Source of the DNA: Macrocystis pyrifera
Lineage: Eukaryota; Sar; Phaeophyceae; Laminariales; Laminariaceae
DNA: 64,000 nucleotides
Assembly (NCBI GenBank): GCA_031763025.1
Contig: JASSKH010000010.1
Coordinates: 3,467,901 to 3,531,900, forward strand
Direction: 5' to 3'
The notes under the pieces are model-generated. The model was not told the origin of the DNA, did not search any database, and was given only the letters and a program-made list of their open reading frames with translations. Position 1 is the first letter of the stretch. Every line of letters starts with the position of its first letter. Of the stretch, positions 2,729-49,614 are shown piece after piece. The position numbers were made by a program, and so were the translations under genes.

Positions 2729-4487
2729 AGAAAAACTCGGCAGCCTAGGCAATAAGACCATGGCACCGCACTGTCCTCGCCAACGTTCTACCGTCACACT
2801 CGGACACGTCCGATGAGCTGCTGCGGTGCGTTTGTAGCAGCGAACTCGTATTGATCTCCGTTCATCCAAACGGAATATCATCGTCCTGAAATCTACCGCT
2901 GGTGTTGTACAGGGCTCCAAGCCCTTGTCCGGGAGGAGAAGGATCTCCTCTGACTATTTAGTGGGAATCACATGCACTTGTATGAAAAGCTGGAACGCAG
3001 TAAATTATGGCGCCGGTGTTGACCTTCATGAGGAACACACCGTTCCAGTAAGCCTTGCGACATGTCGACAAAATCGTAGCACAGAGGTGATGGATCCCAT
3101 GAGATCACCCTAGACTATCAATAGCTGGAATTGCGGACTGTCGGCTTTGTGCGTGACTTTGCTCGGGTGAAGCTGCTGCGTGCTGTCTCCGGGGGCGCAG
3201 AAATTGTTGGTGCTTCCCATATTCAGCCGCAGTTAAACATAGCTGAATGTGCATAGGTATCCCTCCCTTGCACGACGAGGGCGTAACCAAATCATTATCG
3301 AAACATGGAACAACGTAGCACACGATTGGTCGTACCGCATCGAGAAGTTGTCGATGCCTTGTGGGGTTTGCTACATTGTTCACTGTCTTTCAAAGTTTTT
3401 TTTCGTCCGCCTTGCGTAGGCGGGGGGGTCCAGGCCACCTGTTTGGTAACGGTTCCGAAGTGTGGTGCCGCTCGCTCCCGCACGTAGCAGATGACGCCCG
3501 GAATCAGGCGCGTTGATTCCTGGAATGAATTGGGTGTTTCTTACCGTTGTGCTCGGCGAAGGTACTGGCATCAGTAACGGTGCGAAAACCATCCGACGCC
3601 TCCCAACAGGAGGTATTTTGCCATCATGAGGACCCGGTGAGGCTGTTCCAGCCTCGCGTAGTTAGTCGTCCCCTGTAGCACTTCGAGGGAGGGATCCCCG
3701 TAGACGGAGGATTCTGATGCAAAGCTTCCCACAAGCACGGCGAGGGAGATGCTGGTGCCACGCCCTCGATCTTCAACCTTGCCCATAGTCTGTGACGCCT
3801 CCAGGTAGGTCACTCTTTTCATCCAGAGCTCCTCCGAAGTAACATTTCAATGCCCCGAACAGCCAGCCTCAGGTGTTTTACGTTACCTTTGATGTGAACA
3901 TTGTGTCCAGACAACCATGCGAGCTCGAAGAAGGGTTATCTATGGGATTTCTCGTCGTAGCTGTCATCGCGGCCTCCCCTGCCACGACGGGAGAGAGATA
4001 ATAGAAGCACTAAACGATAGCTGCTCGGTGGGCTCCGCTGCCGGGGTAGTGTATGAGCTGCCCACATGCGCGTCATTGCGCTGACCTTCTCATTGCTCAA
4101 AGCCCTTTGGACGAGGCAGTTGGCTCGTCGGTTCGGGTGTCTTGTCTCGGGCGAAACACTGTATGTCGTCTTACCGTCACCTCCTGTCTCCGCCATTTAC
4201 TCTCTCGCTGTGGCCGCTAGTCCAGCAGTTCAGGGCGCGTGTTGCAACGGTGACCATGTCTGCTACTGTTGCACTGCAATACTAGACGGCTTGCTGAGGT
4301 TGAATCGCCGTTATTGTCGCTTGCATGGCCACGCCACGGCCTGCAACGGACTAGGCGGAAGGACGAAGCAGATGGTCGATGATTAAGGTCGACATCATCG
4401 AAAAAATGCGCATCCGTCAGTCTGAAGCTAAGACCTGGAAAAAAAAATCTTAGTTTTCTGCCCGTGGTCATTCTTGTCGGTGATGGC
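2729..4487. other. Unassigned stretch between RepA copies 1 and 2
   Basis: These opposite-facing RepA copies flank 1.76 kb with several 60-100 codon frames, mostly minus strand, that do not assemble into a recognised protein. Confidence 0.4.
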
Positions 4488-5064
4488 GGGGGGGGGGGGG
4501 GGGGGGGGGGTACTCGATAGGAGAGATGTACTCGATCTCATGCATGGCCGTAGTCGTATGACCATAGACCCTCGCATCCCTACAATGCCGGGACGGAGCA
4601 TGTCCGGTTTTCACCGACCAGGCAGACATTGCTCGCACCAAGCGCGAAGCGCCGTGAGGTGTCCGGCGAGTCTCGTGAAGGGTGAGCTGCATCCTACTAA
4701 GAACCGCCTGTGAGGCGGACTTGCATATGGATGACAGCTTCAATGAGTTAGTTTAATTTCCGGTGTGGCCACTTCCAGAGACAGCGATGGGAATACTACC
4801 AGGTATGTAACTGCCTCTTGGGCGCCGTACCTTGAACACTACGTGATACGATCAATTCCCTTGCGCAGAGTAAAGGTTCTTTACTTCGCACAAATGATCT
4901 AACTAGACGACCAGCTGTGGGCGACCGCAAAAAAAAAAAAAAAAAAAAAAAAAACGGTACCCTGGATGTCTAGCTCACGTAGTGAGCGGCATGTTTTACA
5001 GTGTCGCTGCCAACCGACGCCAACCCAACCCATATATAATATATGGGGGGGGGGGGGGGGGGGG
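4488..5064 (-). repeat. RepA copy 2, full form, minus orientation
   Basis: Reverse complement of copy 1 over its whole length, with G runs at 4488-4510 and 5045-5064. It carries a 7-bp CCTGGTA insertion that copy 1 lacks (at about 4797-4805 on the plus strand). Confidence 0.8.
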
Positions 5065-5302: not shown

Positions 5303-5546
5303 CCTGCCACACCGGAAAATGCATAACCTAACCGAAGCTGTCATCCATATGCAAGTCCGCCTCACAAGTGGTTCTTAGTAGAATGCAGCTCACTTTTCAT
5401 GCGACTCTTCGAACGTCTCACGGCGTTCCGCGCTTAGTGCAAGCAACGTCTGCTTGGTCAGTGAAAACCCGACGCGCTCCGTCCCGGCATTGTAGGGATT
5501 CGAGGGTCTACGTTCACACGACTACGGCCATGTATGATGCCCCCCC
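5303..5546 (+). repeat. RepA copy 3, 3' part only
   Basis: Matches the 3' part of RepA from CCACACCGG to GCCATGTATGATG and ends at a short C run. The 5' half of the element is missing. Confidence 0.7.
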
Positions 5547-5558
5547 TGCCTTCTATCC

Positions 5559-5829
5559 TGGAAATAAAATTAACTCATTGAAGCTGTCATAGATATGCAA
5601 GAAAATCCGCCTCCCAAGCGGTTCTTAGTAGGATGCAAGATCACCCTTCATGCGACTCGCCCAACACCTCACGTTTCGCTTCACGCTTGGTGCAAGCAAT
5701 GCCTGCCTGGTTGGTGAAAACCCGACGTGCTCCGTCCCGGCGTTGTAGGGATGCGAGGGTCCATGATCAAACGACTACGGCCATGCATGATATCGAGTAT
5801 GCACCCACCCCTGCCTTCTATCCCCCGTG
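5559..5829 (+). repeat. RepA copy 4, 3' part only
   Basis: Directly follows copy 3 in the same orientation and again contains only the 3' part, ending GATATCGAGTATGCACCC. The tandem placement suggests either a local duplication or repeated insertion next to a previous C-rich tail. Confidence 0.7.
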
Positions 5830-7570: not shown

Positions 7571-7888
7571 AACTCGGACGGTACGCAATAAACAAGAATG
7601 GACAGGGCTCTACGGTGCGAGGATACACCCGCTTTGCGCTTCGATATCTCGTTCGTTGCCGACTGCAACTCTAGAGTGTTTTTACTGTTGCCAGTAGCCG
7701 TCGCTGTCTGCGCAGTTAGCGCTCTGCTGCTCAAATGGGCTACATATTGTTGGTATTGGGAAGAGCGATATATCTCTGAACGCCCCAGAGCGCACGTACA
7801 GCAGAGCACAGCAGTACCACTACTGTAGTACTCGACGACGAGTTTGGAGATTGCACTCTGGTGCACTCGTCGAAATTCGAAGGATACT

Positions 7889-7995
7889 ATTACGGGGGTC
7901 CATAGTTAACAGGACCTACGGTATAGATAAAAACCTATATATTACCTATTTTTAGTAACAAAATTTGGTCCCGTTAACTATGGACCCCCGTAATA
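7889..7995. mobile_element. MITE B copy 1
   Basis: Palindromic element of about 105 bp whose ends read TTACGGGGG...CCCCCGTAA, flanked by TA on both sides. The inner arms CCATAGTTAAC and GTTAACTATGG pair, and the centre has AAAAACCTATATAT. Non-coding; TA target duplication is typical of Tc1/mariner-type MITEs. Confidence 0.8.
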
Positions 7996-8405
7996 CGTAC
8001 AACAGTAGTATGCACTATTTATTAGCCCTAGATGATCCGAGGTCCGCTAGCAATCTGGGAGAAGGGATCTTTAGGTTGGTAGGCTGTTCAGGTGTTTGGG
8101 TCCCTGTTCCCTGTTGGGATCAAGGTACGGGCGGAGACCCAACCCAACCCCTGACTCTGATGATGGATTTGCGGTGGATTTGCGGCGGGAATTTAGGGGA
8201 GTTCAAAGTTCTCACGAAGCGTTCTTCAGCGGCCTTTTCGGCGGTTTCAATCCCCGCTCCCCTTTGTTTAGAGTCCAGAAAAATTAGACCCGTCGATACG
8301 ACGGCCCGACTCTAGACAGTCACGCTCGCCGCGGCTCGGGGTCAATCCAAGTTTGTGTTGCACACACCAGGACACCCCAGACCACTGGATACCCCGGAAT
8401 AAGCC

Positions 8406-11400
8406 ATGGCGAGGCATCTGACATCGGCGGACATTGGGTCTGTGGCGGACGCCACGAATGCATTCGGCGAAGACAAGGGACTGCTCATATGCCGCCCGAG
8501 GCGCAGGTAAGTACTCTAAGTACCCGACGATATTATACAGCTGATATTTTACACGCACGAACGAATATGTATGATGCATGGTGGCCGTATCATGTACTCC
8601 TACCTGGCATTCTCTTATACTTACAACAGGTACCTCGTACCAGTATACTCTCGTCCCATGCAATAGTTCGGTAGGGTGTAGTGCGCATACAAGCTCTGTC
8701 ACGAGCAGTCACGAGCCCCGACGCACCGAGAGATCGTCATTTGGCCACGACGACCGTAGTTTCGAACGCCAGATGACAACTGACTGCTGTGTGAGGAGGC
8801 GCTTGACAGTACCAGACGTCGAGTTTGGACTGCCGAGGGATCACTTTGTGCATGACGTACGTATTCGACCCCATTTCTGTAGGACTGCACGAAAAAAACA
8901 CCTAGAATTACTGTAGAGCTATACTGCAAGTACTGTGCAGTACGAGTAGTAGCCACAAGAGTTCACGACTTTCACCGCTATCATAGACTACGAAAATGTT
9001 TTGCATCACTCGGCAACCTACTTTAAGCAGGTGTTAGGCTATTATACGCACAGCAGTAGTCCAACTTTACTGCTACTTACTACAGAAATACAAAAACGAA
9101 AACGCGCGCAAAAATAAACCAGACTGCACCATTGATAAAGTACGTACATACTGCGTATCATACGTACACGGTGTCTGCCGGGATATACAGGAAGCTCTTA
9201 CTTTCGGGAGCCGTTGCGCTGAAGATATACTTGTACGTTACGTTGCGCAAACAAAAAAAAAACTCCAGCCTGAGCCAATATCCCTCTTTCAAGTATGCGA
9301 GTATAGGTATCCTGTCGTGTATCGTATGTCGTCGACCTTTTGTTCATTTTCCGAAGACGAAATTCACGACGCTGATTGGCGCATTTACGTATTGAGACTG
9401 GCTGCGCGGCCGTCTTGGACAAGACACCCGAAGGGAAGGCTACATGCACATACCGTCTAACACGTAAGATAACACACCGGCTGGGACCAATTTCAGACCC
9501 GGTTTTCCTCCGAAACATGGGGAGCATACACAACGAAAATGGTGGCTTTGGAAAGACTTCATCGAGAAGGTTGCACAGTAGACGCATCGCTCGTCGTACT
9601 CGGTACGCCTGTCGAGAAACCAAGACTCGAAAATCGTCCGAGGGGGTTTGTTATCTTAAGTGTCATTATACGGTACTTATCCCAAAATATAAAAACCATT
9701 TTTTATCAAGTATTTACCAGGTATATACAAACAAACAATCCTTAAATATCGGGGCAAAATTGGGACCAGGCGTAAATACAAGGACCGCTTGGTCTTCATA
9801 TTGATGTCTAAAATAACCTTATATTTCCGGCCAGAGTGGTAGGACAGATCAGCTCACCGCAGCTCGGAGCTGCGAGTACAGCTCTGCCGTGAGAATTATC
9901 ACTCCAGACCTACCGGATACCGTATAACACTTAAGATAAGACACCCCCTCGGACGATTTTCAAAGTTGGGTTTTCTCGGCAACGGGGAGGGCGTACTGAG
10001 TACGATTAGCGATGCGTCTATGCAACCTTCTGGACGAAATAATTCCAAAGCCACGGTTTCCGCTGTCTGTGCCCCCCAGTTTTTGGAGGAAACCAGGTCT
10101 GAAATTCGTTCGCAGGGGGTGTGTTATCTTATCACCCAATGTGATATTTGCCGAGTGTGAGGTACTACCCTGCCAGGTACGATATTGGTTCTCCTTCGTA
10201 CTTGTACACATGCCTTTTTTTTTCGGCGGTGAACAACGTATGGGAGATAGATGAGCTACATGAATGCATCTTCGATGTGTGAAAAGGGGTTGCCACGCGC
10301 CAGTAGAGAGCGCCAACGGATACGATGTTGGGGCAAGCGTTCGGAGTATACAGCAGTTCCAAAAGCAAATGCATTCCCGCTTCAGAACTGTATCCAACTT
10401 TTTCTGTGCACATAAACTGCTTAAAATTCGAGTGGGAACCAACTTATTATCGAAAGCGAGTGTAAGGCAGCAACCAGGGAAGGTCCGGTGGGGAGGGGGA
10501 AGGAAGGGCAAACAGATGTATTTGATTTCGGGTCAGCGTGTGTCGCTGGGTTCACAGCTCACCTGCCGGCAAGTTAAGACCCGACCCGATCGGAAAACGT
10601 TTTCGTCCTCACGTGGAACAAAACAGATCAGATCAGATCGCCACTCGTGATTTAGATACTTGGGGGCAGATGAATCCCAGATCTGCACGATCTATGTATC
10701 TCATGTTGTCGCGGGGGGGGGGGGGGGGTGACAGGACAACGACAACATCGACAGGGTTATGTCTTGTATGTCACGCAGGTTGCAAAGTTAAGCGTCAACG
10801 ACTCCATCGGTCGAATTCACAGCTGACTCATCTGTACTAACTTGATATAAAAAACGTACGCATCGTAACGTCATGGGAAACTACAAATCGCAAAAACAAA
10901 AACACTTACTACTGCTGCACTACATCCGTCTGCCGTCTCTTTTCTCTCTGCCTGCTGCCGCCTCTTTTTTCTCGTCCCGTCCCGACTCCGCCTTCCTATC
11001 ATGCCACACGGACCACGCTACAAGTTCCTGGAAGCCTTTCTTCACCATCCCCGAGGGGTACTACGCGCTCGTCACCAAACACGGCGCTGACATGAACCAC
11101 GACGGCAGCGTGAGTAAAAAAAGTACGCTAGGCATTACCTTGTATGCAATTACTGGGTACAACTCTACTGTAAGTAGGTCGAACGAAAACATTGGTACTG
11201 ACACTGTTGCGGAGGACCATAGTAAATAAGACCAAATATTGTTAGTAACAAAAGGGAAATATGTAGGTTTTTGTGCGTACCGTAGGTCCTATTTACTATG
11301 GTCGCCCGTAATAAGCGGTCTTTCTCTACGCCCAGAGCGGTATTCAATATTAAGACGCGAGTTGACGAGGGAAGAAAGGGCTTTAAGTCTCACTCTCGAG

Positions 11401-14400
11401 ATGAAAACAAATGCAAGGCACGGCCCGTAGTGGGGGGGGGGGGGGGGGGGGGAGAGCTTGCTAAAATAAATATGTGACCCCGGATCTGAGTTGCGACTGA
11501 TGATCGGACGGCGCGAGAGAAGCAAAAAGAAGGGCGAAGGTAAGAAAGACAAGATTGAAGAAACAACCAATCAACAACAGCAACAAAGATCGTGTACTGT
11601 AGGTCCACGAATAGGAAAGAGCCTACCAGGAACTTCACGCTCACATGTTTCAGGGGCAGTACGAATACTCCGGGATTAAGTGATGCTGCTACGCGAAGTA
11701 TTCAGGGTATGTAGTTTTGTAGAGTACGTTCACCAACAAGGGCTGTTCAAGGTCGAAGCACAACAAGGTGTCGAGCCCCCGGCTCAAATGTTGGCGTTCT
11801 TGCTGTGTGGCAATAATAAGTATGCACTCCGCCCACAAGAAACACAGTGGTTTTATTGCCGGGGAACAAGGTAATCAGGATCAAATGTGCCTCGTAAAAG
11901 TACCGCAATATATAGGTTTTTGTGTATGTTACGGGTCTTGAATACTGTTAATATGCCCCCCCGAAAAATCAAAAGCCTCAGAACTGTATGGTGACACCAT
12001 CCTTGAACAACCTTCAGAATGGACAAGCTGTTTTATACCTGGTGCCTGGTGCCTGGTTACCTGGTTACCTTGTAGGGCGCTCCCCGGGGGAGATGTTTGC
12101 GCCCACTGTTGCTGTTTCGAGTGTTCGGTTGTTGACAGCGAGTACGGCTCTTACCCAAGGCAGGTCTAGTGCGTCACCAGCCACCACACAATCCATTCAA
12201 CCTCTCACCGGGTCTCCCTCAGCACGGCGTCCAGTAGCAGTCCATCTCGAGCGGTCCACCGCCCGGCGAACGAGTTGCCCCCTCATACCTGGTACCTGGT
12301 ACCTAATACCTGGTACCTGGTGGAGGCTGATACGCGGTAGTTGGTACCTAAAAATGTACCTGGTACCTGGAAGGATTTAATGTAGCGCTCGCCGCTGAGC
12401 ACGGTTTCTTAATCCAAGTTTCTTGTAGCGTCATCCAAATTGAGCCTCGTGTTCTTATTTACTGTAGGCTGATTCTTATTCGCGGGCCTGTACACACTAC
12501 ATTATACCCGAGTACACATCTTATACGGCGCCCGGAACAAGAAGGAACGTGCTTTTCGTGGTCGTTATATTTTCAATTTTATTTTCTGATGCTGCTGCTT
12601 GCTCGCTCTCTCGCTTGTTTATATATACATACCTGGTACATATTTATATATGTATACTGGCAGGAGGTCTGGCCGCCAGGCTTCCACTCGGGCCCGCCTT
12701 GGCTCAAGGTGTCCAACCTCGTGACCAAGCAGAGCGTGGTTTTGGACATGCCTGTGAAGGGGTGCAAGACGAAAGACAACGTTTCGGTGACGATCGACGT
12801 TGCCATCGTGTTCCGAATCATGGGTGATGCGGCCAAGGTGAGCCCTGAGCAAGAAGAAAGACTGCAATGTATAAAGGGGGCTTGCAAGTAGTAGTATGCT
12901 ATACGATATCGGATGCAACTAGCTCCCCAGTTTAGAATAGTTCCGATGGCCTTCTGGCGGCGTGTAGCGCAAGCTTGTTCCAATCACACCATCCACATAC
13001 CAAAGGGAACCTATTACGGGGGACCATAGTAAATAGGACCTACGGTACACACAAAAACCTACCAGGTATGTGTTTACCTGTTTTTTTACCGACAATATTT
13101 GGTCCTATTTTCTGTGGTCCCCCGTAATAGCATCCAACGACATGGAAGATACTATCAAGCAGACCTGGACGCCTACTTGACGAAAGCATGCCAACAATGT
13201 AGTCCCTCACATGCTTGACTTGCTTGCTTCTAACCGGCGTTTCACGAAGCTACAGCTGAAGGGGTGACATTTACGTATGCTTCATCATGTATCATCAGTT
13301 CAGTAGTTAAGCTTTTTCGTTCCACAACACGCAGCACGATGCTGCAACACTGCTCACTCGAAAACATCCCCAGAACTATGAAAAAAAAATGCGAAACAGG
13401 GGAAACCTAAACCAGCAAACATATGCGCGTCCAGTAGATAGGTCTACAAAATACGAAACAGCCTACTGCAACGAGAACATAAGACTCACTTTTTTTTGGG
13501 GGCGGGTGGTAAGAAAGTTGGATCAAGAAATCGTGCTCGGTGGCGAGCGCTACACCAAACCCTACCAGGTACTGGTACCAGGTATACAACAGCTTATGCT
13601 CAAGGTTGAGCAAGGATGGTATCACAATGGGTTCTAAGGCTTGCTCAGATTCTTAGGGGTACCGCGTTGGTGGGCTCACACTGTAATCAAGTATTTATAG
13701 TCTAAATCCATGACGTACCTATTTCAGGCCTGTCGTAGCTACTCCGCTGGCTCTCCCTTGCTCCACCTTTCGCTTTTATATTACCAGACTATCTATCAGT
13801 ACGTAGCTTTTCTAACGAAGCGAGTTTGCAGGAGTGCACGGACGCCCACAAAAAGTTATAGGGCATGCCTTACTTTTTGAGCCTGGTGGACGAAGCAGGA
13901 GATTCGGCAGGAGATCTGAATCTCGAGGTCGAGATCCGCGCCGCCCGACCGAAAATCTCCGTTTTTTTACATCATTTTTAAACCAATTACGTCAAGTCAA
14001 CCCAACACACACGACCAACTAGCGCGCACAGTTGGCGACAGATACACATATCCACCAGCGCGGGTTCTACTTGTAGCCTATCGTACGTCTGTGTGTATGC
14101 ACTTGGCTCTGCTTCACGACGTACCATTTCACGTTTATAGGCCATTCATCCATCCGCCCATCCATCTATCCATCTATCCATCTATCCATCTATCCATCTA
14201 TCCATCGATCCATCCATCCACTGGTTTCCAACCCGAATCGCCCCCCCTAATCCCTGTTAACGTTTATTATTGCAGCAAGAAAACCCGAATCTGGTGCGCA
14301 CTTTCGTTCAACAAGTTGGCGCCCCTGGTCTGGAGCAGCAGCTGAGCGGGGCGCAAGAAGAGGTACGATATGGAAGAGGTACAATATTAAAGAGGTACAG

Positions 14401-17400
14401 CATAGAAGAGGTGCGGTGTGGAAGAGGTACAGTATGGAAGGCATTCAGTATGAAAGAGGTACAGTGCGGAAGGCGTGCACTACAGATGAGGTACGGTATG
14501 GAGGACGTACAATCTGGAAGAGGTACAGCATGAAAGAGGTACAATATAGAAAATGTACAGTATAGAAGAGGTACAGTACGAGAAACGTACAGTATGGATG
14601 ATGTACAGTATGGAATGGGGACATTATGGAAGGAGTGCAGACGTATAGTTGAAACCATAATGTTACACCGACCTTGAACAATCTAGGCTATTGCATACCG
14701 ACGCCCTTGGCAAACTTTATCGCAGCAGCTCCCGCCGCTGAGCATAAAAATCTTAGTCCATTTTCCTTCGCGTCTTCGCCGAAACGAGTCTCAGTTTCTC
14801 ACTGCTGGCGGCTTGATTCTCACTCCTGGGTCCATACTGTAGCCTGGATGAACGAGCTAGCGACCAGGCAGGCGGGGACAGCGGGTGCAGTAGCGGTAGA
14901 GGGACGGGGTGGGGATATTGTTGCCTCTCTGGCGACGACAAGCAGTTGCGCTTCGCCTCCTCGCGATGAGTCCGACCTGAAGACAAGTCAAACATGATAC
15001 AGCAGTTTTGGGCCACGAATAAGAGATAACAGAATAAGAACGTCAGCACAGGCTCGCTCTTTTGGAGGACGCTGCTGCCTGGTAAATTCCGGATTGAGAA
15101 GTCGTGCTCAGCGGAAACAAAAGAACCTAAGAGCGACCCCCCTCTCATAGACAGCCGTTCGATGGTCGTGGTTGCTCAAGTTTATTGTTGGCTCAAAAAG
15201 TTCAAAGCGTTTTAGCATACGTTAGTTGTTTCCTGCTGTGCAGTATTGGTCCTCTCGTGAAAAAAAAACAGATTTTTTTCAGAGCGCTAGCCTCGAGAAC
15301 TGTTGCAACGTGAAGGGAAACATATAGCCCATCCTATTAGCGGTAGGCGCTCGTCGTCTAGGTAGGAAACTGTGATAAACCTAACGCCTTTTTGCTTCGC
15401 CACGCAGTAAGTATGTGGTACCCATGTAAGACATCCCGAATTTCAGGTTTCTGTCAAAAAAAAAACGAGAACAAAATACACATCCAATCTGTGAGATCGA
15501 AAATTTCCTCATCTTTCCAGAGCTTACGAGAGGGCCGGTTGTATACTGCTCTATGTTATCGTGCGCAAAACAAAAATCGACACACACCTACACACTGACT
15601 CGATCGCGCAGGAAGTGCGGTCACTCGCGAGAACAATGAAGCACACCGAGGTCTACGGGCTGAGGACCAGAGGCACCAAGCCCGTCGTGAAAGGGGTGAT
15701 GGCAGTCATGGAGAAGGAGGGGGAGGGTTACGACGGGGACGAGGCGCCGCCTACTCCGATGGGAACTCCTCCCCCCGCCGAGGAGGTGCGTGCGTGAAGC
15801 CGTTTGGCGCGCAGCAACTGTTGGACAGATGCTGCTGTCGTTTTGCTTCTTCAAGAACGAAGGATTGACGTCCGGTTGTCGGGATGAAAAATACCACGTA
15901 TCTCATTTTTATTTTGTTTGTGTGTACCCCTTCTTTCGTTATGAGATCTGCACTACAGCATTCACTTCTTTAGCCCCCTCTCCCTTTCGAAACCCAGATT
16001 CGGGGTCGGTTGGCGGGCACTCCTACCCCGACTACGGTGCATGCCCTCCTCTTTATCGCGGGAAAAACTTCAGCACTTTTTTCCCTCGTCGGCTCGCGTC
16101 TTATTTTTTGCCTACATTCGCACACTACCGTAGGTAGACGATTTCTGGAGTCATGTTTAGCACGAAAATAAATCCTCCTTGGGGGGACTCGAGCTCGCGA
16201 AATTGACTCTAAAGTGGGTCGATACATAAGCAGTCAGCCATCCGGGGGGCCGGCAGCTGAAATGAATCGGCTACAGGTGGTTAACTGAAGTCAGCGTTTG
16301 GAGCCAATGAATGGAAAACACCGCTAAACGGCGGGTGCGTTTGAGTCACCCCCCTGGGGTTGATCGCTTTATCTGTAAAGGGGTTTCCAATTTATACACC
16401 GGGTACAAGGTATTAATGAGTAGAATTTATTCACCAGGGGATAGACGACACAAAAAACCTGATGTTACGGTAACTGCCGTCGAAGTTAGTTACCGATAGT
16501 TTACCGGCATGTCGGCAACTGCCACCTCTGAAAAAACACGGGTACGCCCGAAAGACGCGAGCTTTATTCCTCAGCTTTACGTTGGTACGTTTGTCTATTG
16601 GCGTGCCATTCGTATTAGCTGGCCCCGCGGACACGTTACAGGAACACTCCTTCGACGACGTTTTACGGTGTGGGTCCGCTCGCAAGAAGAACCCAACGCG
16701 AGGAAGGCTTTGCTGCCTTCTCCAGTATTCATAGTTCACCTTGCGTTTGCCATCCTCAACAACCTGCAGCATGGGTCTCATAGTGTTGGATATATCGTGT
16801 CGAACGTTTCGCAAATATCGAACGTGTCTTTCTTTATCCTCCATCCCCTAGCATCCGCCGTGTTTTGTATGCTGACACTGAGCAGAAGCTTCGACGCGTA
16901 TCAAATATCGACATCGTATCGACTACATACGGATGTTTTTTTTTGGGGGCTTTTCGGTATTGTGTCGAAGTCGATTCTCCTTCGATACCCAACACTTGGA
17001 GCCTCAACGTTGATCACCCATGAACATTTCCACAAACAAGAAATATAACAACCCCGAGGGAAACAAAAAGACAGGGAAACATAAACCTCGGCACGAGCCA
17101 GACACCCATACACATGCATCTTGCCCACGGCAACCCCGATGCGATGATTACTTAGGCTTTCCAATCCTAAAACCCAGGGAACCCCTGTACGCGGTCAAAC
17201 TCCAGACATGCTGGTATGTCGTGTCCTTAAAAAAAAATTATCTACTGTAAATGTACAACATCGTTTTAAACCCTTTGCAACCAATGTGATGTACTCGTCT
17301 GATGCACCTTGTATCTAGGAAGTCACCTTGGAAGGGCGATACGACCAAGTGGACGCGGACAACGCTATAGTCGCAACGGCCAAGGGGAGCTTGCACTGCG

Positions 17401-20400
17401 AGAAAATGAGGGCTAACTTGAATGAACAGTTTCAGTCACAGGCAAGGACCAGTCTATGTCTCAAGTGAGGGGGGGGGAGTGGGGGGTGTACTCATTTTAT
17501 CATGCATGGCCGTAGTCGTACGACCATAGACCCTCGCATCCCTATAATGCCGGGACGGAGCACGTCGGGTTTTCACCGACCAGGCGGAGATTGCTTGCAT
17601 CAAGCGCGAAGCGCCATGAGGTGTTCGGCGAGTCGCATGAAGGGTAAGCTGCATCCTACTATGAACCGCTTTAGAGGCCGATTTTCTTGCACATGGATGA
17701 CAGCGTCAATGAATTGATTTAAGTTCTGGCGTGGCCAGTTCTAGAGATAGCAATGGGTTTACTATGTAGCTGCCTCGTGAGTGCCTCACCATATACATAG
17801 GAGGAAAACCGGGTCTGGAATTTGTCCCAGGGGGTGTGTTGTCTTATCACCCAGTGTGATAGTCTTATACGGTATATATAAACATACCAAGCAGGATCTG
17901 TATGGCACATACACAACTCAGGACAAATGTCGCTGTCATACATAGGTCTTGCAAGCTTACACAGTGCGGGTTCCGCCCGGCAACTTGACCTACACTACTG
18001 CTGTACATCATTTCACTCTTGTATCAGAAATAATGTTTCGCTCCGTTTGGAGTCAGTTTTCCCAAAATACCAAACCCTCCGGGGACAGGTTCAAGGTTTT
18101 GGCCAGGGTTCCGTAATTGTGAGGGAGTACATTCTGCCCCGAAGGATCTACACAGTACTGTTGTAACATCGCGTCGTACGTTAATTCGTATATAGTTTGG
18201 GATCAATGAGGCCTCCTGCTGCGACCAGCCGGAGACTCTCACCCAGGGTTACTACTCCCGCGTTGGTTGTCTAGCAATCAACGCGGCACCTCGTCGCAGA
18301 GAGTAGGTATCCCGGTTAAATAAACACTAACAAAAGTGATGTCGTTGTCGACGGTACACCTCGCTACCAACGATGGGCGGGCGGGATGGTCTGTTTTTTT
18401 TTCCTAGCCTCTTTCTACTTTGTCGTGCTGTTGTAGAGCTGCGATATCGCTCACGGAGTGATACTCAATCACTGTCTCCCCACACAACAAGGAGGCTTTC
18501 CTGAAAAGGGATCCACCCTGCTGGCGTCCCCTCTCTTCTGGTCCAGAATTATGTTGTAACATCGCGTCGTACGTTAATTCGTATATAGTTTGGGATCAAT
18601 GAGGCCTCTCTCTGCTGCGGCATGAGATCACACCCATACTTGTTGACCCTTCTCTTATCTCAATGTCGTCACTCTTTTGATGCGTTTCCTTTTTTGCGGG
18701 TGCCTTCTATTCCTTATTGTCCCCAAACTTGTAGCCTAGTTGATTAGGGGTTCTGCTACCGTTGGTTGTCCCGTGGGAACGTCGTGTACGATTTTCCAGA
18801 CCCCTCTGACGGTGATACGCGCTGAGGTATGCGATCGCGGTGTGATGCACCCGGAACGCGTTTACCTGGTTGTCGGCACGCAGTGTTGTAGCGTGTCTCC
18901 GTGGGGTTCTTCCGGAACTAACATACGCTTATGTCGTGCTTGAGGGGCGACAAAGGCGGAGCGTTTATGCAGGTGGTCTCCCACACTATATTTTCTCAGA
19001 TACCGCAGCCCGCTCCCCACCGCAGTTACCATACGCTTTCGTCTAACGAAGCACGCATAACGTCTGCCACAGTCGGCATGTTTTCTACGTTTCGCTTGGT
19101 CCTCGCCCCCTCATCCCATTTGTTCCTCGACTTTCAGATTTGGGGGGGAAAAATGGGAACGAGCAACCTACTTCTCGGTGCCTCCGTGATAGGGTCACGA
19201 GCCATACACTGGCAGATCCCACCACGCTTGATACGGCACGATGTACAATTATGTTTGTTATAGCAAGCAATTACAGGCACCTGAGATACGGTGCACCACT
19301 CACTACCGTGGGTTGCGACCTACACTACTGCTGTACATCATTTCACTCTTGTATCAGAAAGAATGTTTCGCTCCGTTTGGAGTCAGTTTTCCCAAACTAC
19401 CAAACCCTCCGGGGACTGGTTCAAGGTTTTGGCCAGGGTTCCGTAATTGTGAGGGAGTACATTCTGCCCCGAAGGATCTACACAGTACTGTACATCACGA
19501 AGTGGGGATCTCGGTGACCTGTCGCGCTGTTCTTGAACGTTCGGTTGAATGTAGACGAGCGCTGTCCTACCTTGGGACGCGCATACTGCTGTGCACCGAG
19601 CGTAGACAGCTCGTGTCTGCTGGGAAGGGAACATACAACCCCTCATACACCCCGAGGCACCCAAATACTTCCCACCGCGACTGCTCTTATCATAAAGTGG
19701 AGAGGGATCTCGACGGTTTGTCCCGCTGGGCTGTTCGTTGCTTGTCTTTTCTTCCTTTTTGTATGTTCTTTTCTCGACCTGCTGTTTGAGGCAGGGCGTG
19801 GAAAAATCACGGCCGTGATCATCAAGAACGTCGAGCTCCCCGCCAACATCAGCGAGCAAATGTCCGGCAAGACCTTGGTGATAAGCAGCGTCGCCGAGCA
19901 GAAAATGAACCAGCAATCCGACATGCAGCAGGTGAAACAAAAAACAAGTCCATGATACAGGCCTGAACATATGGAGTCCAGCAGTCAATGGTAGGGCTGC
20001 GAGAGGTGGCTGTACTTGTCGGCTACCGGTACAGTAGTTAACTTTTGAGTTTCGGCGACGCGTATGGTAAGCGATTTAGCTAACCTTAATGTAGTATTTG
20101 TCATTAAAAAACCACACGTCAAAAATGCGACAAACGCACCACAGTTAGATGCAAAAAATCGCCAGAACTCCGCACAAAACCCGTGCGTAGTAACGAACTG
20201 CTGTAGTGCCTAGCCAACTAATGCCTAGCCTGTGCGACTCACAGGCAGACAACTCGCAGCCCTGTGCGTACCAGTCAGACATAATAGACACGCAGCAGTC
20301 AAAATATTGTCATGCAACGAGCCGAAATGAGCAAGCAGACAAGTATGCATGCACGCGGTCTCATAGGCGGAGAACGACGCGCGCCTGGTGCGTGCAGAAC

Positions 20401-23363
20401 ACGACACAAGTTGAGGAAACTGCCTTCCTGCCTATCTGATTAATGAGCTGGGGTGACACTCTGTAGCAAATACAACAACAGCAAAAACAAAAACAACGAA
20501 AACAACGAAAACGACAACAGGAGCAACAACAACAACAGCAGCAACAGCAACAGCAACAACAACAAAAGCATCTATTCGGAAGCCGTACGTCCGGATGACT
20601 TGGCCCCCCCCCCCCCCCCCCCTCCGACCCGACATGGTCCGTCCCGGCATTGTAGGGATGCGAAGGTCTACGATCATACGACTACGGCCATGCATGAGAT
20701 CGAGTACATCCCTCCCATCGAGTACACCCCCCTCCCCGCGCCCCCCCCTATATAGATGCATCACGATGCACAGTATACAATCTAGATCCTTAACATGTCA
20801 CCATGAGTCGTTGTGCAAGGTATGTATTGGTACAGACCCGACCTCTCAGGAAACGTGTTCTAGCTCATGCAGCTCCCACTCAGCAATTTGAGAGATGCCA
20901 TACAGGTCAGGACAAACATTTTGATCATGAAGTGGGGATTGCTGAGCCGTCCTGAGTCTGAAAGACTATTAACCCCTCATTTCGATGATAAAAAAGTGAC
21001 GAAAATCCTGATATTTGTATGTATATAGTATGTCCGTGCCACATGGTGTCCGTTTCTAGACTCCCAATATCCGTGTGCGCGTCGTTGTCTGCCGAAAAAT
21101 CATGCGCTTCGCAGCCGTGCTGTGCTGCCCACTTGTCGCCGCTGACCAAGAATGAATCGGGATCTTCTTGTCTCGTCCCCCATGTTTACCCCATGTTGTC
21201 TGCCGTAAACCCTCGCTTTTCACCGCCGCGCTCTGTCGCCCGCTTGCCGCCGATTGCTGCTGCCACTGCCGCCGCTTTAGATCGTGTACGATCAAGAAGT
21301 AGACACATTGGACCAGGCTCACGCCGAGCAGAGAGAAGAAGAGAAGCAATCGGCGGAGCAGAAAATCAACGAAATCCAGGTAATAACTTTTTTTTTCTTG
21401 GTAAGAAGTTCAGGTATTGACCAATTTTCTTAATAAGTGCAGCAAAATGAATGCTCCACTAGTTCCAAGTAGTTTTCCTCGAAGGGGTCAAGAAGGCGAG
21501 CATGAAGGGAAAACGAATATGCGAGCTGCCCCTCGACGCGGCCTGGGAAATCACGAGTAGGAAGGTAGGGGGAGCACGTGATGATAAGGCAAGAGCATGG
21601 ACGGTCCCTGAGATATTCGACGCACGTACCAGGTATGTAGGTCTTATCGACGCTGATGCTGAAACTTGTTGCTCCTCTTCCTTACGCTTGCGCGCATTTC
21701 TATTGCACGAATTTAAACTAATTTCCCCCCTAAAAAACGTGGGCTGTACTCGGACACACCGCCGTAGCGCCTTTGTGAAGGTGTTACCTACTCACCTAGA
21801 GGGGTAAAAAATCGATATTTTGGGGCGTCGGTACCGTGTACGACGGCCGTACGCTGACCTACCCGCTTCGTTTCAATACCTGGGGAACCAGGGAGATATG
21901 TTTTCAGGGACCGGACGCGCAAGCGTTTTGTATGAAAGAAACGTTCGAAGTGATATTCGAACGCGTGTCCTGCCGACGACGCCAAATGTGATAGGTAACA
22001 TGTTCACACTGTCCTGTGCCACACATGGGAACACTTACGGGGTTACCGAAAAGCTAGACACTCAGTAATTTTACAGCGAGTCATATGACTCGCCCCCCCA
22101 AAAAACAATCGTGGGCAGTAACGCCTCTTCCAAACAAACGGTTGGGGTGCGGGAATTCCTCCACAGCTTTTATATCGACTGCTGAGGAAAGCGTGTGCGC
22201 TAATGTGCGAAGCCCCGTGATGCTTTCAGATCCGGCTGGGCAAAATGAAGGCGGAGGCGATGAAGATTAAGATGAACATAGCCGAGGAAAGCGCGGTCTG
22301 TGTCCAGCAGATAGAGGCCGATGTGGCCCTACAGGTGAGCATGGCACAGTCATTCGGGATGTGCCCCCCCCCCACCACCTCCATAAGGTGGCCACAGAAA
22401 GGAAAACAGGAAGGGCATACATAAGGTAGGAAAATATTTCGTAACGTCATGTATGGAAAAAAACGCAATGAGCGCCCAAATGTTGGAGGTGTCTCTACTA
22501 GGAGTGGGAACGGTGCTCCGCCTCGAAATGGATGCGTGGTCGATGGTCAAATGATTAAGGCGAGCAACAAATGAGTACGCCCCCCCGCCCCCCCGGTGCT
22601 CCGTCTTGAAAGGGATGCGTGGTTAAAATGGTCAAATAACTAACGCGAGCAAGACATACGTTCACCCCCCCCCGCCCCCTTCCGGTGGCGTGCAGAATAT
22701 CGCGTCTTTTTCGAATCACCTTCCGTGTGGTACACTTTCCTCTCGTTATCCTTTTGAGAATGGCGGTGGTGTATAACGCCTTTTTCGTGAAAAAGCCTTC
22801 GTGTCTCTCCAAAAACCCTCGGCTTTTTTTTTGTTCTTGATCTTTTTCCTCTCTCTTTTTTTGGGTTTGTCCAGGTTGTAGTTGAGGCATGTTCGTAAAT
22901 ACCTTTGCGCCTTCATAACTCTCTCCTATTCCACTTTTTTCCTCTCTCACAGGTCGCGCAGATAGATCCTGATCCACAGATAGATCAGATAGATCATCTA
23001 GCTCCTAATTTGCCGCTGTGATGAGATGCTGTGCAAGATCTGCGTATATCTACCGATCTCACCCGGGAATATGTGCTCGATCTCACAAATCTGGGATGTA
23101 CATATTCCCTGAATTATTTGAATCAGCAAGTGGACGGCATTGATGATCCGACGTGTCCGATGTGTTCATCCTTTGGTGTCGGTGGTAATGTGTTTTTCTT
23201 CCTTCATGTGTCGGCGGGAAGATGTCGTTTCTTTGTATTGTACGTCGGTGGCAATGTACTGTTTATATTTTTTTGTTCTAGAGCACTTCGCTCTTTCAAG
23301 CCTGTGCTTGTTTTTTTTCTTCCCTAAATACCTACCGGTGTGTCAGGTCTCTTCTTTCTCTCC

Positions 23364-23448
<85 letters not shown>

Positions 23449-26400
23449 TTCTTATCTATCTTACTCGCGATGTATTGTGAAGGTCGTCTGCATCGCCTTG
23501 TTTTAAGCCTCTTTTCTCCCTCTTTCTTACTCGTTACCTGGTACCTGGTACCTGGTATGTTTTTGTTTTTGGTGAAAAGACGTCGCGCCTGAAAAACTCT
23601 CAAGACGCTGCTGTCACGGACTTACACGCCAAGTCGGAGCGGGCAGCTGCCAGGATCGCCGCCGAGACGGGGGTTTTCGTCACAGAAAAGGTACAACACC
23701 GTCACGTAAAAGGTACCGGGTACCGTGACATGAACGGTACAGGTACAGTCGCATAAAAGGTACCGCCACCGTCGCACACAAGGTACCGGTACAGTCACAT
23801 AAAGTTTACCGGTACCGTCAAAATACAAGGTACCGTACCGTCAAAGAAAAGGTACCGTGCCGCCACCGAAAAGGTACGGTACAGTCACAGGACAGGTACC
23901 CTTCTGTCACAGAACAGGCACCGTGCAGTCACCGAATTCATGCCGCACGGCCCCGCATCACAGTTCAGTTGGTGGTTGTTCGCCTCGTAAAGGCCATCGT
24001 ACCGTCACAGGCAAGGTATCGTACCGTTGCATAAGCCCTCGTTTTAGTTGGTGGCGGTGGCGGTCGTGGTACTGGTAATAGTGCCGTTGAATTGTATTCC
24101 TTCGGTTGATAAGATAGCCGTGCGTTTTCGTTGAAGCTTGTTGCCAACGTTTCGCCCAAAAACCGACGCTATTTACAGACTAAAATACCGAGATGTCAAA
24201 AGAGTAGGGTAGGGCCATGTGGCGCGTTGTCATGCAGACATATATCGCCGAGTTCAGGCCTTCAAAAATACAGAGAAAAACACCACCACTATTTACAAAT
24301 AAAAGTCAGGGCAACTTTCCTGGTGAAATATCTCCCTCTATACTTAGGTAGAGTTGTTGGGCGCTAAGAGCAAGACTCGCACATACCCTGGTAGCTCTTC
24401 TGACCAGCTTTTTTTTTTCTGCAAATTTTCTGACCTGTTAAGGTCTGTCTCGAGTGAGCATCTGCCGGGTTTGCAGTCCTAAACGTGTTGACGTTGAAGC
24501 TCTCCTTCTGCATGCACATTGTTGAAGGATGGCAAATACACACCCGTTCAACTTATTTATCGGCGTATCCCAACGCGCTTTTTCTGTTTCACGGGGTTCG
24601 GTCCTCCGGTGTGCAGGCGTCAGCGGCTGCCTTGACCGTCACGCAGAACAACGCCAGCCAAACGTCGATTCTCGCGGAAGCAGAAGGACGGGCGGCCCCG
24701 ATGGTGAGAATAATAGAACCACGACCGAATAAAAAACCGAGTCCTTCCTTCCTGGTGTCGCGATCGAATAGAAAACCGAATCGACCCCTCTTCTTGGTGA
24801 GAACTTTTGAAACTTGGGCCCCCTGCTCGTCTTGCCTGAGACTGCTTTTTCTTCTCGAGAAACTCACCCCCCTCCCTTTTATGTTAGATATAGGTGGGTT
24901 TGGCGTCGGTTGGCAACGACACTGTTAAATTTGCCGCTTGCTACGTGAGCTAGACAACCAGGGTATCGTTTTTTGTCTTTTGGGGGTCGGTCACAGCTGG
25001 TGATCGAGTTGGATCCTTTGTGCGGGGTGGAGAACCTTTACTCTGCATAAGGGGAACGATCGTATAACCTACCAGGCAGTGTTTATGGTAAAACACCCAA
25101 GAGACAGTTACATAGTGCCCTCATTTCTGTCTCTGGAAGTGGCCACACCGGTAATTAAATTGCCTCATTGAAGCCGTCATCCAGTTGCAAGTCCGCCTCA
25201 CAAGCAAGTCTTGGTAGGATGCAGCTCACCGTTCACGCGACTCGCCGAAAACCTCGCGTTTCGCTTCGCACTTGGGGCAAACAATGTGTACACGGTTCGT
25301 GAAAATCTGACGTGCACCGTCCCGGCATCGTAGGGATGCGAGGGTCTATGGCCATACGACTACGGCCATGCATGATAATGAGTACTCCTGGATTAATGAC
25401 AAACACTCCACACAAAACGACCCCTCCCCCTTGTGAAGGCGTTCGCCTGTTGGGCTGCATACTGGTAAAGTGTTTATAACCAATCACTACCCACTCTAGG
25501 CCTTGAAACAATACCCCCCTCTGGAGCGGCAGGATGTTCAGGTCGACCGGATATACGGGTCGACGTGCCAAAGCCTTTTCGATCAGCTGTTCTAATTCTG
25601 GGGATCTCGATACCAAACAATCTACCCCCCCCCCCCCCCCCTCCCACATTTGTGACACACAACCAAAACGGTATACGAGTAGCTTGCTGCCGTGAAGCAG
25701 TTCGAGACTGAACAGCGGCGGCTGGATGTGGTGGACAGCTTATCGAACAACCCCGACCTGGTGATCTCTTCAAGCGCCAGCGACGACGTAAACGCCATGA
25801 TGATGTGCGACGCGGTGCTGAGCAGCGTCCAGCCGGGACAGCCCATCAACCGGTCCCAGGTTAGATCAATCTCTGTCTACAGTACCAGGGGAGTCTACGT
25901 CGAAATATACACGACACGAAAAAATCGATACCACTCCACGTTTGTTTTTTTGAGACGCACAGAGGGGGGGGGGGGGCGGAAGGGCAGTAAAACTAGCTTT
26001 TTCTTTTTTTTTTCGTAAGAAAGTTGCCACTTTTCATAGAACTAGTACAGAAATCCCCATCCCATTGATTTTATTTTCATTTTGTTGATTATTTTTTAGG
26101 AGTGTGGTGTCGTTTTTTTCCTTTTTTTTTTGACGTGTACCCCTCGTAAAAAAACCCGTAGTGTAGAGAAATCCCGTCCGCTTGGGAAAACCAATACCCA
26201 CAGCGATCCGCTGGCACTAGAATTCAACGCGTCGTTCACTCACATCAGTCGCGCCGCGTGGTAAAAAATAATAGATCGTGTTACGCCGTAGTACGTAAGG
26301 AACTCTTATGTACACATCACACCGCTAGTAAGGTGCACGTGTGTCTGTCTGTCTTTGCGTCTTCCTCGTGTCAATCTCTTCCCCCCGGTGTGCGTCGTTT

Positions 26401-26513
26401 AAACGTTAAACACCACCAACCGCTCGCTCCCTCAGGTCCTGGCGGAACTGGTAATGCTGCAGAAGGGGTCCAGGGTCTACATGGGCCACGACATGGCCGA
26501 GCGCGCCGCCTAA
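8406..26513 (+). CDS. SPFH/band-7 domain protein, 13 exons
   Basis: Spliced model of about 513 residues with the exons listed in the summary. Exon 1 starts at ATG 8406 and ends at a strong donor (CAG|GTAAGTAC) in phase 2; exon 2 begins at 11025 with the single base completing a Ser codon. All later junctions are phase 0. The band-7 core runs from exon 2 (FFTIPEGYYALV) through exon 3 (PPWLKVSNLVTKQSVVLDMP, then KDNVSVTIDVAIVFRI) and exons 4-6 (LVRTFVQQVGAPGLEQQL; MKHTEVYGLR) to exon 7 (GRGKITAVIIKNVELP). Exons 8-12 encode a Gln/Glu/Ala-rich likely coiled coil, and exon 13 ends at TAA 26511-26513. SPFH proteins form membrane-associated oligomeric scaffolds; no clear transmembrane helix is seen, so the compartment is unknown. 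Intron 6 uses a GC donor at 17442. The exon 1-2 link rests on phase and context only. It could belong to the prohibitin, stomatin or flotillin branch; I cannot say which. Confidence 0.82.
9451..9672 (+). mobile_element. Element C copy 2
   Basis: Left end AACACGTAAGATAACACACC, interior ATGGTGGCTTTGGA, right end TTGTTATCTTAAGTGT, the inverse of the left. It lies in SPFH intron 1. Confidence 0.65.
9908..10150 (-). mobile_element. Element C copy 3, opposite orientation
   Basis: Ends AACACTTAAGATAAGACACC and GTGTTATCTTATCACCCAAT. It is inverted relative to copy 2, from which it is separated by 235 bp. The arms extend about 60 bp (GAAACCAGGTCTGAAATTCG pairs with the head of copy 1). SPFH intron 1. 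Confidence 0.65.
11206..11313. mobile_element. MITE B copy 2, in SPFH intron 2
   Basis: Same palindrome in the opposite orientation with one decayed terminus (TTGCGGAGG instead of TTACGGGGG) and an intact CCCGTAATA end. It lies about 100 bp after the exon 2 donor. Confidence 0.7.
13014..13127. mobile_element. MITE B copy 3, in SPFH intron 3
   Basis: Both termini (TTACGGGGG and CCCCCGTAA) are intact, with TA flanks. It is about 7 bp longer than the other copies because CCAGGTA is inserted after AAAACCTA at 13061-13068. Confidence 0.8.
14143..14221 (+). repeat. (CCAT/CTAT)n microsatellite in SPFH intron 3
   Basis: CCATCTATCCATCTATCC repeats, 54 bp before exon 4. Confidence 0.9.
14360..14647 (+). 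repeat. 16-bp minisatellite repeating the exon 4 splice donor
   Basis: Eighteen 16-bp units (model GAGGTACAGTATGGAA) start with the last three exon bases and continue without length change to 14647. Unit 1 contains the real junction GAAGAG|GTACGA. Most units keep GAGGTAC and several keep AGAG before GT, so intron 4 begins with a ladder of possible donors. Because 16 is not a multiple of three, use of successive donors would shift frame. Confidence 0.85.
15990..16250 (-). repeat. tRNA-derived SINE copy, SPFH intron 5
   Basis: Minus strand: a tRNA-like head has an A-box-like GGATGGCTGACTGC and a B-box-like GAGCTCGAGTCCCC. Body sequence TTTATCGCGGGAAAAACTTC is shared with the copy at 31.5-31.8 kb. 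The head does not fold into a complete tRNA by eye. Confidence 0.45.
17466..17791 (-). repeat. RepA copy 5, in SPFH intron 6
   Basis: Minus orientation; the 3' tail ends at the G runs 17467-17475 and 17480-17485 (GTGTACTCATTTTATC). Truncated at about 17791, where it abuts an element C fragment. Confidence 0.7.
17797..17876 (-). mobile_element. Element C terminal fragment
   Basis: Only one arm remains: GGAGGAAAACCGGGTCTGG to GTCTTATCACCCAGTGTGAT. It abuts RepA copy 5 in SPFH intron 6. Confidence 0.55.
17989..18164 (+). repeat. Direct repeat, left copy (176 bp), SPFH intron 6
   Basis: CTACACTACTGCTGTACATC to TCTACACAGTACTGT. It is almost identical to 19319-19494 (three base differences read by eye). 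The flanks differ and there is no TG...CA end, so an LTR reading is not supported. Confidence 0.8.
18485..19165 (+). repeat. Element E copy 1, in SPFH intron 6
   Basis: About 680 bp, matched almost end to end by the reverse complement of 62300-62980. Landmarks are AAAAGGGATCCACCCTGCTGG, ACATCGCGTCGTACGTTAAT, CCCCAAACTTGTAGCCTAG and TTCTACGTTTCGCTTGGTCC. No protein domain was recognised. A 55-bp piece of it (from TGTAACATCGCGTCG) is also present at 18163-18218, beside the left direct repeat. Confidence 0.75.
19319..19494 (+). repeat. Direct repeat, right copy (176 bp), SPFH intron 6
   Basis: Partner of 17989-18164; between the two lies the 0.68 kb element E. The repeat ends 296 bp before exon 7. 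Confidence 0.8.
20466..20575 (+). repeat. CAA/AAC-rich simple repeat in SPFH intron 7
   Basis: Irregular AACAACAGC and AAAACAACG units, immediately upstream of the C run and RepA copy 6. Confidence 0.85.
20605..20750 (+). repeat. RepA copy 6, short 3' fragment, in SPFH intron 7
   Basis: Starts just after an 18-base C run (20605-20622) and contains only the last 120 bases of RepA, ending GAGTACACC and C-rich sequence. It is a strongly 5'-truncated copy abutting a C run. Confidence 0.65.
22362..22590 (+). mobile_element. LINE 3'-end fragment, poly-C tail
   Basis: Lies in SPFH intron 9. The translation resembles the WPQ...KQEG and KKRNERPNVG blocks of the LINE at 27.8-28.6 kb, followed by its 3' tail ending AATGAGTACG and C runs. 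A C run also precedes it at 22364-22373. Confidence 0.65.
22592..22676 (+). mobile_element. Second LINE 3'-tail fragment in tandem
   Basis: Repeats only the last 75 or so bases of the LINE tail (GTGCTCCGTC..., GGATGCGTGG) and again ends in a C run. It sits directly after the C run of the preceding fragment, so two insertions appear stacked in one C-rich site. Confidence 0.55.
22956..23165 (+). repeat. GATC-rich repeat G, copy 1, SPFH intron 9
   Basis: AGATAGATCAGATAGATCATC, then GATGAGATGCTGTGCAAGATC and TGTGCTCGATCTCAC, shared with copies at 36.8 and 47.8 kb. Confidence 0.55.
23349..23447 (+). repeat. (CT)n microsatellite in SPFH intron 9
   Basis: About 45 CT dinucleotides with a few interruptions, ending 130 bp before exon 10. 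It may contribute to the pyrimidine-rich environment of the acceptor. Confidence 0.95.
23677..23960 (+). repeat. 22-bp minisatellite repeating the exon 10 splice donor
   Basis: The end of exon 10 (GTCACAGAAAAG) plus the first intron bases (GTAC) form the seed. Downstream GTCACGTAAAAGGTACC, GTCGCATAAAAGGTACC, GTCAAAGAAAAGGTACC, GTCACAGGACAGGTACC and others repeat it about 12 times with variable 5-8 bp spacers (GGTACC-rich). A weaker unit appears at about 24004 (CGTCACAGGCAAGGTATCG). Confidence 0.8.
24880..25388 (+). repeat. RepA copy 7, near full length, in SPFH intron 11
   Basis: Begins after C-rich sequence with a decayed ATATAGGTGGG head and runs to CATGATAATGAGTAC. It carries a 7-bp CCAGGCA insertion at the position where copy 8 has CCAGGTA and copy 1 has nothing. 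Confidence 0.75.
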
Positions 26514-49203: not shown

Positions 49204-49517
49204 AAAGCCTACTTCTGCGCGCGTTGCCGTATAAATGCATTCACGCGTACGGCGTACCTTTTCGATGTCGTGGTGAGATACTCTGTCCCTTTGACTGTTT
49301 TGTACACTCGATCGCGCGATCGCGCCTACCGGTACAGCCGCAGCTACTTCTGTAGCTTTGTTTTTGTTGTTGTTGTTGCTGGTGTGGTGTTGACGCCTGC
49401 TTGACAAGGGGCGTTCCCGCAACTTTATGCTCTTTACACGAACGGCGCCACCCCAGAGGGTTGCTTTAGCGCTTATTCGAGAAAATGATTGACACACACT
49501 GTGTACGAGGCGAATTG

Positions 49518-49614
49518 AACTAACCCTAATCCTGACCCTAAGCCAAATGAGAGCAACCCTAACCCTAATCCTGAGCCAATTGAAGCAACCCTAACCCTGA
49601 CCCTACGCCTATCA
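49518..49614 (+). repeat. Telomere-like minisatellite, about 33-bp unit
   Basis: Three units of AACCCTAACCCTAATCCTGA plus a CCAATTGAAGC-type spacer. Either an interstitial telomeric block diverged into a longer unit, or a subtelomere-derived repeat. Confidence 0.6.

Follow-up and report, generated by a model that had tools for sequence, protein, structure and literature searches.

A gene for an SPFH/Band_7 protein in the brown alga Macrocystis pyrifera carries, across its exon 4/intron 4 junction, a minisatellite of eighteen 16-bp units that begins in coding sequence and continues into the intron. The gene lies in a window of 64,000 nucleotides (assembly GCA_031763025.1, contig JASSKH010000010.1, positions 3,467,901 to 3,531,900 of the forward strand; coordinates below count from its first letter). 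The array is very probably a junction-straddling minisatellite of the type called 'mirage' in amphioxus, which expanded on an old phase-0 junction and has decayed since. The gene model consists of 13 exons joined by hand into one unbroken open frame, with introns 2 to 12 in phase 0. The spliced protein matches the Pfam Band_7/SPFH family with an E value of 1.3e-12 (exon 1 and the first three residues of exon 7 were missing from the query).

Two arrays across donors of one gene

Read by hand, the 18 units are contiguous and free of indels (14357-14644, forward strand). Tandem Repeats Finder (TRF) calls positions 14357-14632 with a period of 16, 17.2 copies and a score of 228, compared with a highest score of 58 in 20 first-order Markov randomizations of the whole window. 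The consensus unit is GAAGAGGTACAGTATG. It is matched at 234 of the 288 positions (mean match 81%), and the flanking 16-mers share at most 7 of 16 positions with the unit. An earlier sequence-only reading of this DNA had recognized eighteen 16-bp units starting in the final bases of exon 4, which the hand reading bears out; its array end, 14647, overshoots the actual one by 3 bases. A 391-bp DNA query around the array was run against the whole genome in a search that leaves out simple repeats and very common words. It matched only the array's own locus; within that scope, similar copies at unrelated intron positions, as introner-like elements have, were not returned.

Unit 1 begins in the final 6 bases of exon 4 and the remaining 282 nt of the array are in intron 4, so the array spans the exon-intron boundary, as mirages do. 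A second mirage feature is also present, in that many but not all units retain AG/GT at the donor position (here and below the slash marks the boundary). The sequence-only reading credited every unit with a version of GAG/GTAC; this is close for GT, intact in 16 of 18 units, and too generous for AG/GT, which is kept in 10 and lost in 8. Position +5 is A in place of G in 15 of the 18. If the columns decayed independently at the mean match, we calculate that about 8 units would keep AG/GT; the observed 10 are near this number, which gives no hint of upkeep of the rungs. Mean similarity between units is flat (0.65-0.73) across lags 1-13, with adjacent units about 0.68 identical, and falls to 0.44-0.65 at lags 14-17, where only 4 to 1 pairs are available. 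The flat profile suggests little recent turnover of the array.

Donor strength was scored with a matrix from 31 kelp donors gathered by eye, the two array donors excluded. These real donors score 4.2 to 13.1 bits (median 9.5). Three units score as ordinary donors: unit 1 with 8.8 bits (35% of the 31 are lower), unit 4 with 9.4 (42%) and unit 9 with 8.1 (23%). The other fifteen reach at most 5.4 bits, mainly because of the A at +5. The ladder of potential 5' splice sites seen in the sequence-only reading is weaker than it looks, with only units 1, 4 and 9 well inside the span of genuine kelp donor scores. Because three units make 48 nt, every third unit is in frame. It had been stated that alternative donors would shift the frame; this is wrong for units 4, 7 and 10 (+48, +96 and +144), which are in frame and open and would add 16, 32 and 48 residues, the open frame past exon 4 ending 56 codons after the exon. 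Units 7 and 10 score 4.7 and 1.0 bits. Units 4 and 9 are predicted to be competent donors.

A second junction-straddling minisatellite, overlooked in the earlier reading, lies at the exon 10/intron 10 junction of the same gene. No other array in the window combines a period of at least 10, at least 5 copies and a unit that we judged not to be of low complexity. AGGTAC is common to the two arrays, and the only two GTAC donors among the twelve of the gene are those with the arrays.

Intron age and competing explanations

Searched against the genome, a peptide spliced from exons 3-13 matched two further copies of the gene, both on the same contig. The tandem paralogue (loci L019 and L020) lies immediately upstream of the SPFH gene. 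Its exon 4 has exactly 29 codons and ends ACACAGGAAAAG/GTAAGG (donor GAAAAG/GTAAGG); its exon 5 begins GAAATTCGG and is 28% identical to that of the window gene. Its intron 4 is at the same phase-0 position and measures 1326 bp by coordinates, versus 1249 in the window gene, and TRF found no array in it. In the distant paralogue (L017, assumed from its adjacency to L018 to form one gene with it) exon 4 is fused with the second part of exon 3. The fused exon has the donor GCTGTG/GTGAGA, the next begins GAAGAAGGC, and the phase-0 intron between them lies within 6 nt (two codons) of the intron 4 position, again with no TRF array. Exon 4 identity to the paralogues is 55% and 48%. The exonic part of the unit encodes EE, which aligns with EK (GAAAAG) in the tandem paralogue, so the unit contains ancestral coding sequence. 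In the window gene, the last base of intron 4 (15611) is 967 bp downstream of the array end (14644), placing the acceptor outside the repeat. The simplest reading of these comparisons is that intron 4 is older than the array.

We infer the following route for the duplication, with use of the first donor and neutral decay. A phase-0 intron would already have been old in the SPFH gene when a segment across the junction, with 6 nt from the end of exon 4 and 10 nt from the start of intron 4, was duplicated in tandem; it would then have been amplified on the intron side up to 18 units. The cost may have been low, since exon 4 still meets a donor in the first, outermost copy; if this donor is spliced, the protein is unchanged. 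The units would then have drifted apart, leaving unit 1 as the likely main donor. Its plausible competitors would be unit 4, in frame at +48 nt with 16 extra residues, and unit 9, which at +128 nt shifts the frame.

Birth of the intron by tandem duplication of an AGGT-containing exon segment (the Rogers model) was one of two origins proposed in the sequence-only reading, and the repeat does contain AGGT and start in coding sequence. However, intron 4 is found in two paralogues that lack the array, at the same position in one and within 6 nt in the other, and neither its 3' splice site nor most of its 1249 bp is built of repeat units. For intron 4 this origin is contradicted, and we consider it very unlikely as an explanation, while expansion of an existing junction, the other proposed origin, is supported by the same observations. 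For intron 10 only, birth gains something from the distant paralogue, in which one exon aligns gap-free across exons 9-11 (21% identity, E 0.039) and intron 10 is not shared; yet this paralogue is without other introns too, so nothing is concluded on the age of intron 10. It could also be that the array (GAAGAGGTAC) arose within the intron near its 5' end and that the donor then slid into it, in which case the junction did not seed the repeat. Minisatellites abound in this genome (AGGTAC triple ladders number 1082 over the two strands, versus 1922 for the reversed control) and both SPFH arrays share AGGTAC, but exon 4 is exactly 29 codons long in the tandem paralogue as well, which argues that the donor has not moved and makes this account quite improbable.

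A selected ladder, with several units in use as alternative 5' splice sites that give isoforms longer by 16, 32 or 48 residues or controlled non-productive transcripts, seems to us unlikely. Unit 4 is in frame and scores slightly above unit 1, the frames at +48, +96 and +144 stay open, and three consensus units in a row contain no stop in any frame (the real array does contain stops). Against this, only 3 of 18 units exceed 5.4 bits, retention of AG/GT is near the neutral expectation, and the other open in-frame units, 7 and 10, are weak. We give almost no credence to an assembly artefact, in favour of which we saw nothing, as this is a 288-bp array of divergent units with one match in the whole-genome search (simple repeats and very common words left out), in an assembly based on PacBio and Hi-C data (537 Mb in 35 scaffolds and 188 contigs, 223 in Table 1 of the available text of PMC10498591).

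Several observations weigh against expansion on an old junction followed by decay. The order of events (intron, then array) would rest on the paralogues and on unit divergence, and the paralogues are themselves so diverged in exons 4 and 5 that loss of the array in both is conceivable. There are 54 mismatches to the consensus and no indels in 288 bp, which is unexpectedly clean for neutral drift and unexplained. Use of the first donor is suggested by frame and homology. By score, units 1, 4 and 9 are ordinary donors and not strong ones; several of the weak units, at 4.7-5.4 bits, exceed the lowest real donor (4.2 bits), so that as donors they are not strictly impossible. At intron 10 a weak first donor (5.6 bits) is outscored by a copy 183 nt downstream (8.3 bits), though the frame closes before that copy. 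Codon differences between the SPFH gene and its paralogues (silent/replacing) are 9/9 in exon 12, 3/4 in exon 13, 9/23 in exon 3 and 5/13 in exon 4. They are not mainly silent, so the gene may be weakly constrained, and strong constraint is not claimed. A search for orthologues with a 120-residue peptide of exons 3-5 in genome and viral contig collections gave 26 and 1 pattern matches, respectively, and no relative.

Table 1: Positions of the two arrays and of the parts of the SPFH/Band_7 gene discussed in the text.
Feature	Position	Strand	Description	Basis
16-bp minisatellite	14357..14644	+	18 units of consensus GAAGAGGTACAGTATG	TRF and hand reading
Second minisatellite	23678..23936	+	unit of about 22 bp, CGTCACAGAAAAGGTACCGTAC, about 11.5 copies; starts 13 nt inside exon 10 at GAAAAG/GTACAA	TRF
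SPFH/Band_7 gene	8406..26513	+	13 predicted exons	hand prediction
Intron 1 donor	8507	+	no array there	
Exon 2 start	11025	+	AG acceptor	
Exon 4	14276..14362	+	29 codons, phase 0 to phase 0; unit 1 begins in its final 6 bases	
Intron 4	14363..15611	+	1249 bp, phase 0; donor GAAGAG/GTACGA (unit 1), acceptor CGCGCAG/GAAGTG	
Unit 4 donor	14411..14416	+	GAAGAG/GTGCGG, best-scoring copy, 9.4 bits; in frame at +48 nt, predicted gain of 16 residues	
Unit 9 donor	14491..14496	+	GATGAG/GTACGG, 8.1 bits; +128 nt, frameshift	
Exon 5	15612..15785	+	phase 0 start	
Exon 10	23580..23690	+	phase 0 at both ends	

Arrays elsewhere in the genome

Duplication of a splice junction also occurs in a second gene. A TCP-1 family exon (L061, C207:4985969-4986142, minus strand) has a clean 90-bp two-copy tandem duplication that includes the last 14 nt of the exon and the donor, with GTCGAGCAG/GTG in both copies. 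This case and the intron 10 array indicate that the process recurs in this genome.

Arrays were counted around 62 donors, 12 from the SPFH gene and 50 from TCP-1 exon ends, using a TRF score of at least 50, a period of at least 9, two-copy repeats included, and array starts from -60 to +580, all thresholds of our own choosing. The TCP-1 sample comprises 50 of 54 matches; four at the profile end were left out and two similar ones were kept. Among 26 merged arrays, 4 straddle the donor (starts at -14, -13, -6 and -3) and 22 start at 0 or beyond. At the density of those 22, our post hoc arithmetic gives about 0.5 straddling arrays in 14 bp, against the 4 observed, two of which come from the gene under study and one of which is rich in GGGT (L099); for eight TCP-1 donors the chosen site scored less than 5 bits. 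The straddled donors are 2 of 12 in the SPFH gene and 2 of 50 TCP-1 exon ends. A stricter TCP-1 count (TRF threshold 40, at least 3 copies) found 0 of 30 exon ends straddled; the later count differs in including two-copy repeats and 20 further exons. No array straddled any of 20 kinesin exon ends (20 of 131 matches; in two of them the chosen place had no GT). A 5-bp GGTGT run (L057) straddles a donor too when the TRF threshold is lowered to 30; it is outside the count. On the acceptor side of 30 TCP-1 loci (score at least 50, period at least 5), no array had its right edge inside the matched part of the exon, and the nearest ended 24 nt before it (exon starts were not placed).

These counts raise the possibility, which we regard as doubtful, that tandem duplication in this genome has hot spots at 5' splice junctions, with arrays beginning just inside exons above what intron density predicts, at donors and not at acceptors. 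Something at the transcribed donor would seed the duplication and straddling copies would be near-neutral; two independent arrays on the only two GTAC donors of one gene would then be the visible tip.

A genome-wide excess of AGGTAC ladders was considered and rejected, with 519 + 563 = 1082 places compared with 958 + 964 = 1922 for the reversed-pattern control. TRF on 30 partly overlapping AGGTAC ladder loci identified many other minisatellites and is uninformative about exons. CATGGA ladders outnumber those of AGGTAC, and decayed 11-bp arrays with a CCATGG core occur downstream of exon 6 of the tandem paralogue (L020:3972-4980), which hints that palindrome-cored minisatellites are perhaps common here.

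Other features of the genes and the window were also noted. The distant paralogue is 84% identical to the window gene over exons 12-13 versus 44-69% over the earlier matched exons, a pattern that exchange or conversion of its end might have left. The intron 6 donor at 17442 is apparently GC (CAG/GCAAGG), and some TCP-1 exon ends likewise read best as GC donors. Short elements with inverted ends (e.g., TATTACGGGGGACCATAGTAAATAGGACC), resembling miniature inverted-repeat transposable elements, are at about 7888-7996, 11207-11315 and 13012-13130, two of them in SPFH introns 2 and 3; a tandem pair at 63119-63232 has related text. A dispersed repeat family sharing GTCCCGGCATTGTAGGGATGCGAGGG and CATACGACTACGGCCATGCATGA is found at 2160-2740, 4480-5060, 5334-5791, 17460-17790 and 25000-25420, in both orientations and often beside poly-C or poly-G runs, and recurs in the tandem paralogue's intron 4 (L019). 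An interstitial telomere-like repeat, AACCCTAACCCTAACCCTAAGCC, occupies 49513-49609.

Related systems and significance

In amphioxus, mirages are minisatellite-like tandem duplications of exon/intron boundaries described for Adh3, with units of 10-72 bp, and for the globins BflGb6 and BflGb9; regular splicing is reported to be undisturbed and length to be unstable (available text of PMC3087553). Like them, the kelp repeats span an exon/intron boundary and keep AG/GT in many, not all, units, and their units of 16 and about 22 bp are within the range given for Adh3. Unlike BflGb6, where the same text gives units 81-100% identical, the kelp units are old, and we see no ongoing homogenization. The host also differs, a brown alga rather than a cephalochordate. 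By anatomy, as read from the sequence, the kelp arrays are mirage minisatellites.

The human IFI6 (6-16) gene would be a functional parallel, by analogy. Its minisatellite has multiple splice donors, with two downstream units reported to be used (Turri 1995, as cited in the available text of PMC4526556). The kelp minisatellite likewise sits at an exon's donor and offers extra donors downstream; unlike those of IFI6, these are predicted from sequence and only two look strong. In AGGT tandem-duplication intron gain, as far as the available texts of PMC4974935 and PMC3629103 describe it, the intron is new and takes both of its splice sites from the duplicates. The kelp gene resembles such cases in having a repeated segment with AGGT at the junction, and the fission yeast examples also consist of several short (24-nt) units. 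Unlike them, the kelp acceptor is outside the array, so that GT and AG are not both from the duplicated segment, and the intron is common to the paralogues.

A literature search of open-licence papers returned, among its top results, no report of such arrays in brown algae. We conclude that this is an ordinary mutational process at an unusual place, for which we found no earlier report in this lineage. It extends boundary-straddling minisatellites to a multicellular lineage that evolved independently. The other copies of the gene within this genome indicate that an intron can already be old when such an array grows on it, a caution that AGGT repeats at the start of an intron need not mean intron birth. 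A simple prediction is an isoform longer by 16 residues, spliced from unit 4. Finally, the second array and the TCP-1 case make it possible to test, genome-wide, whether donors attract tandem duplication.

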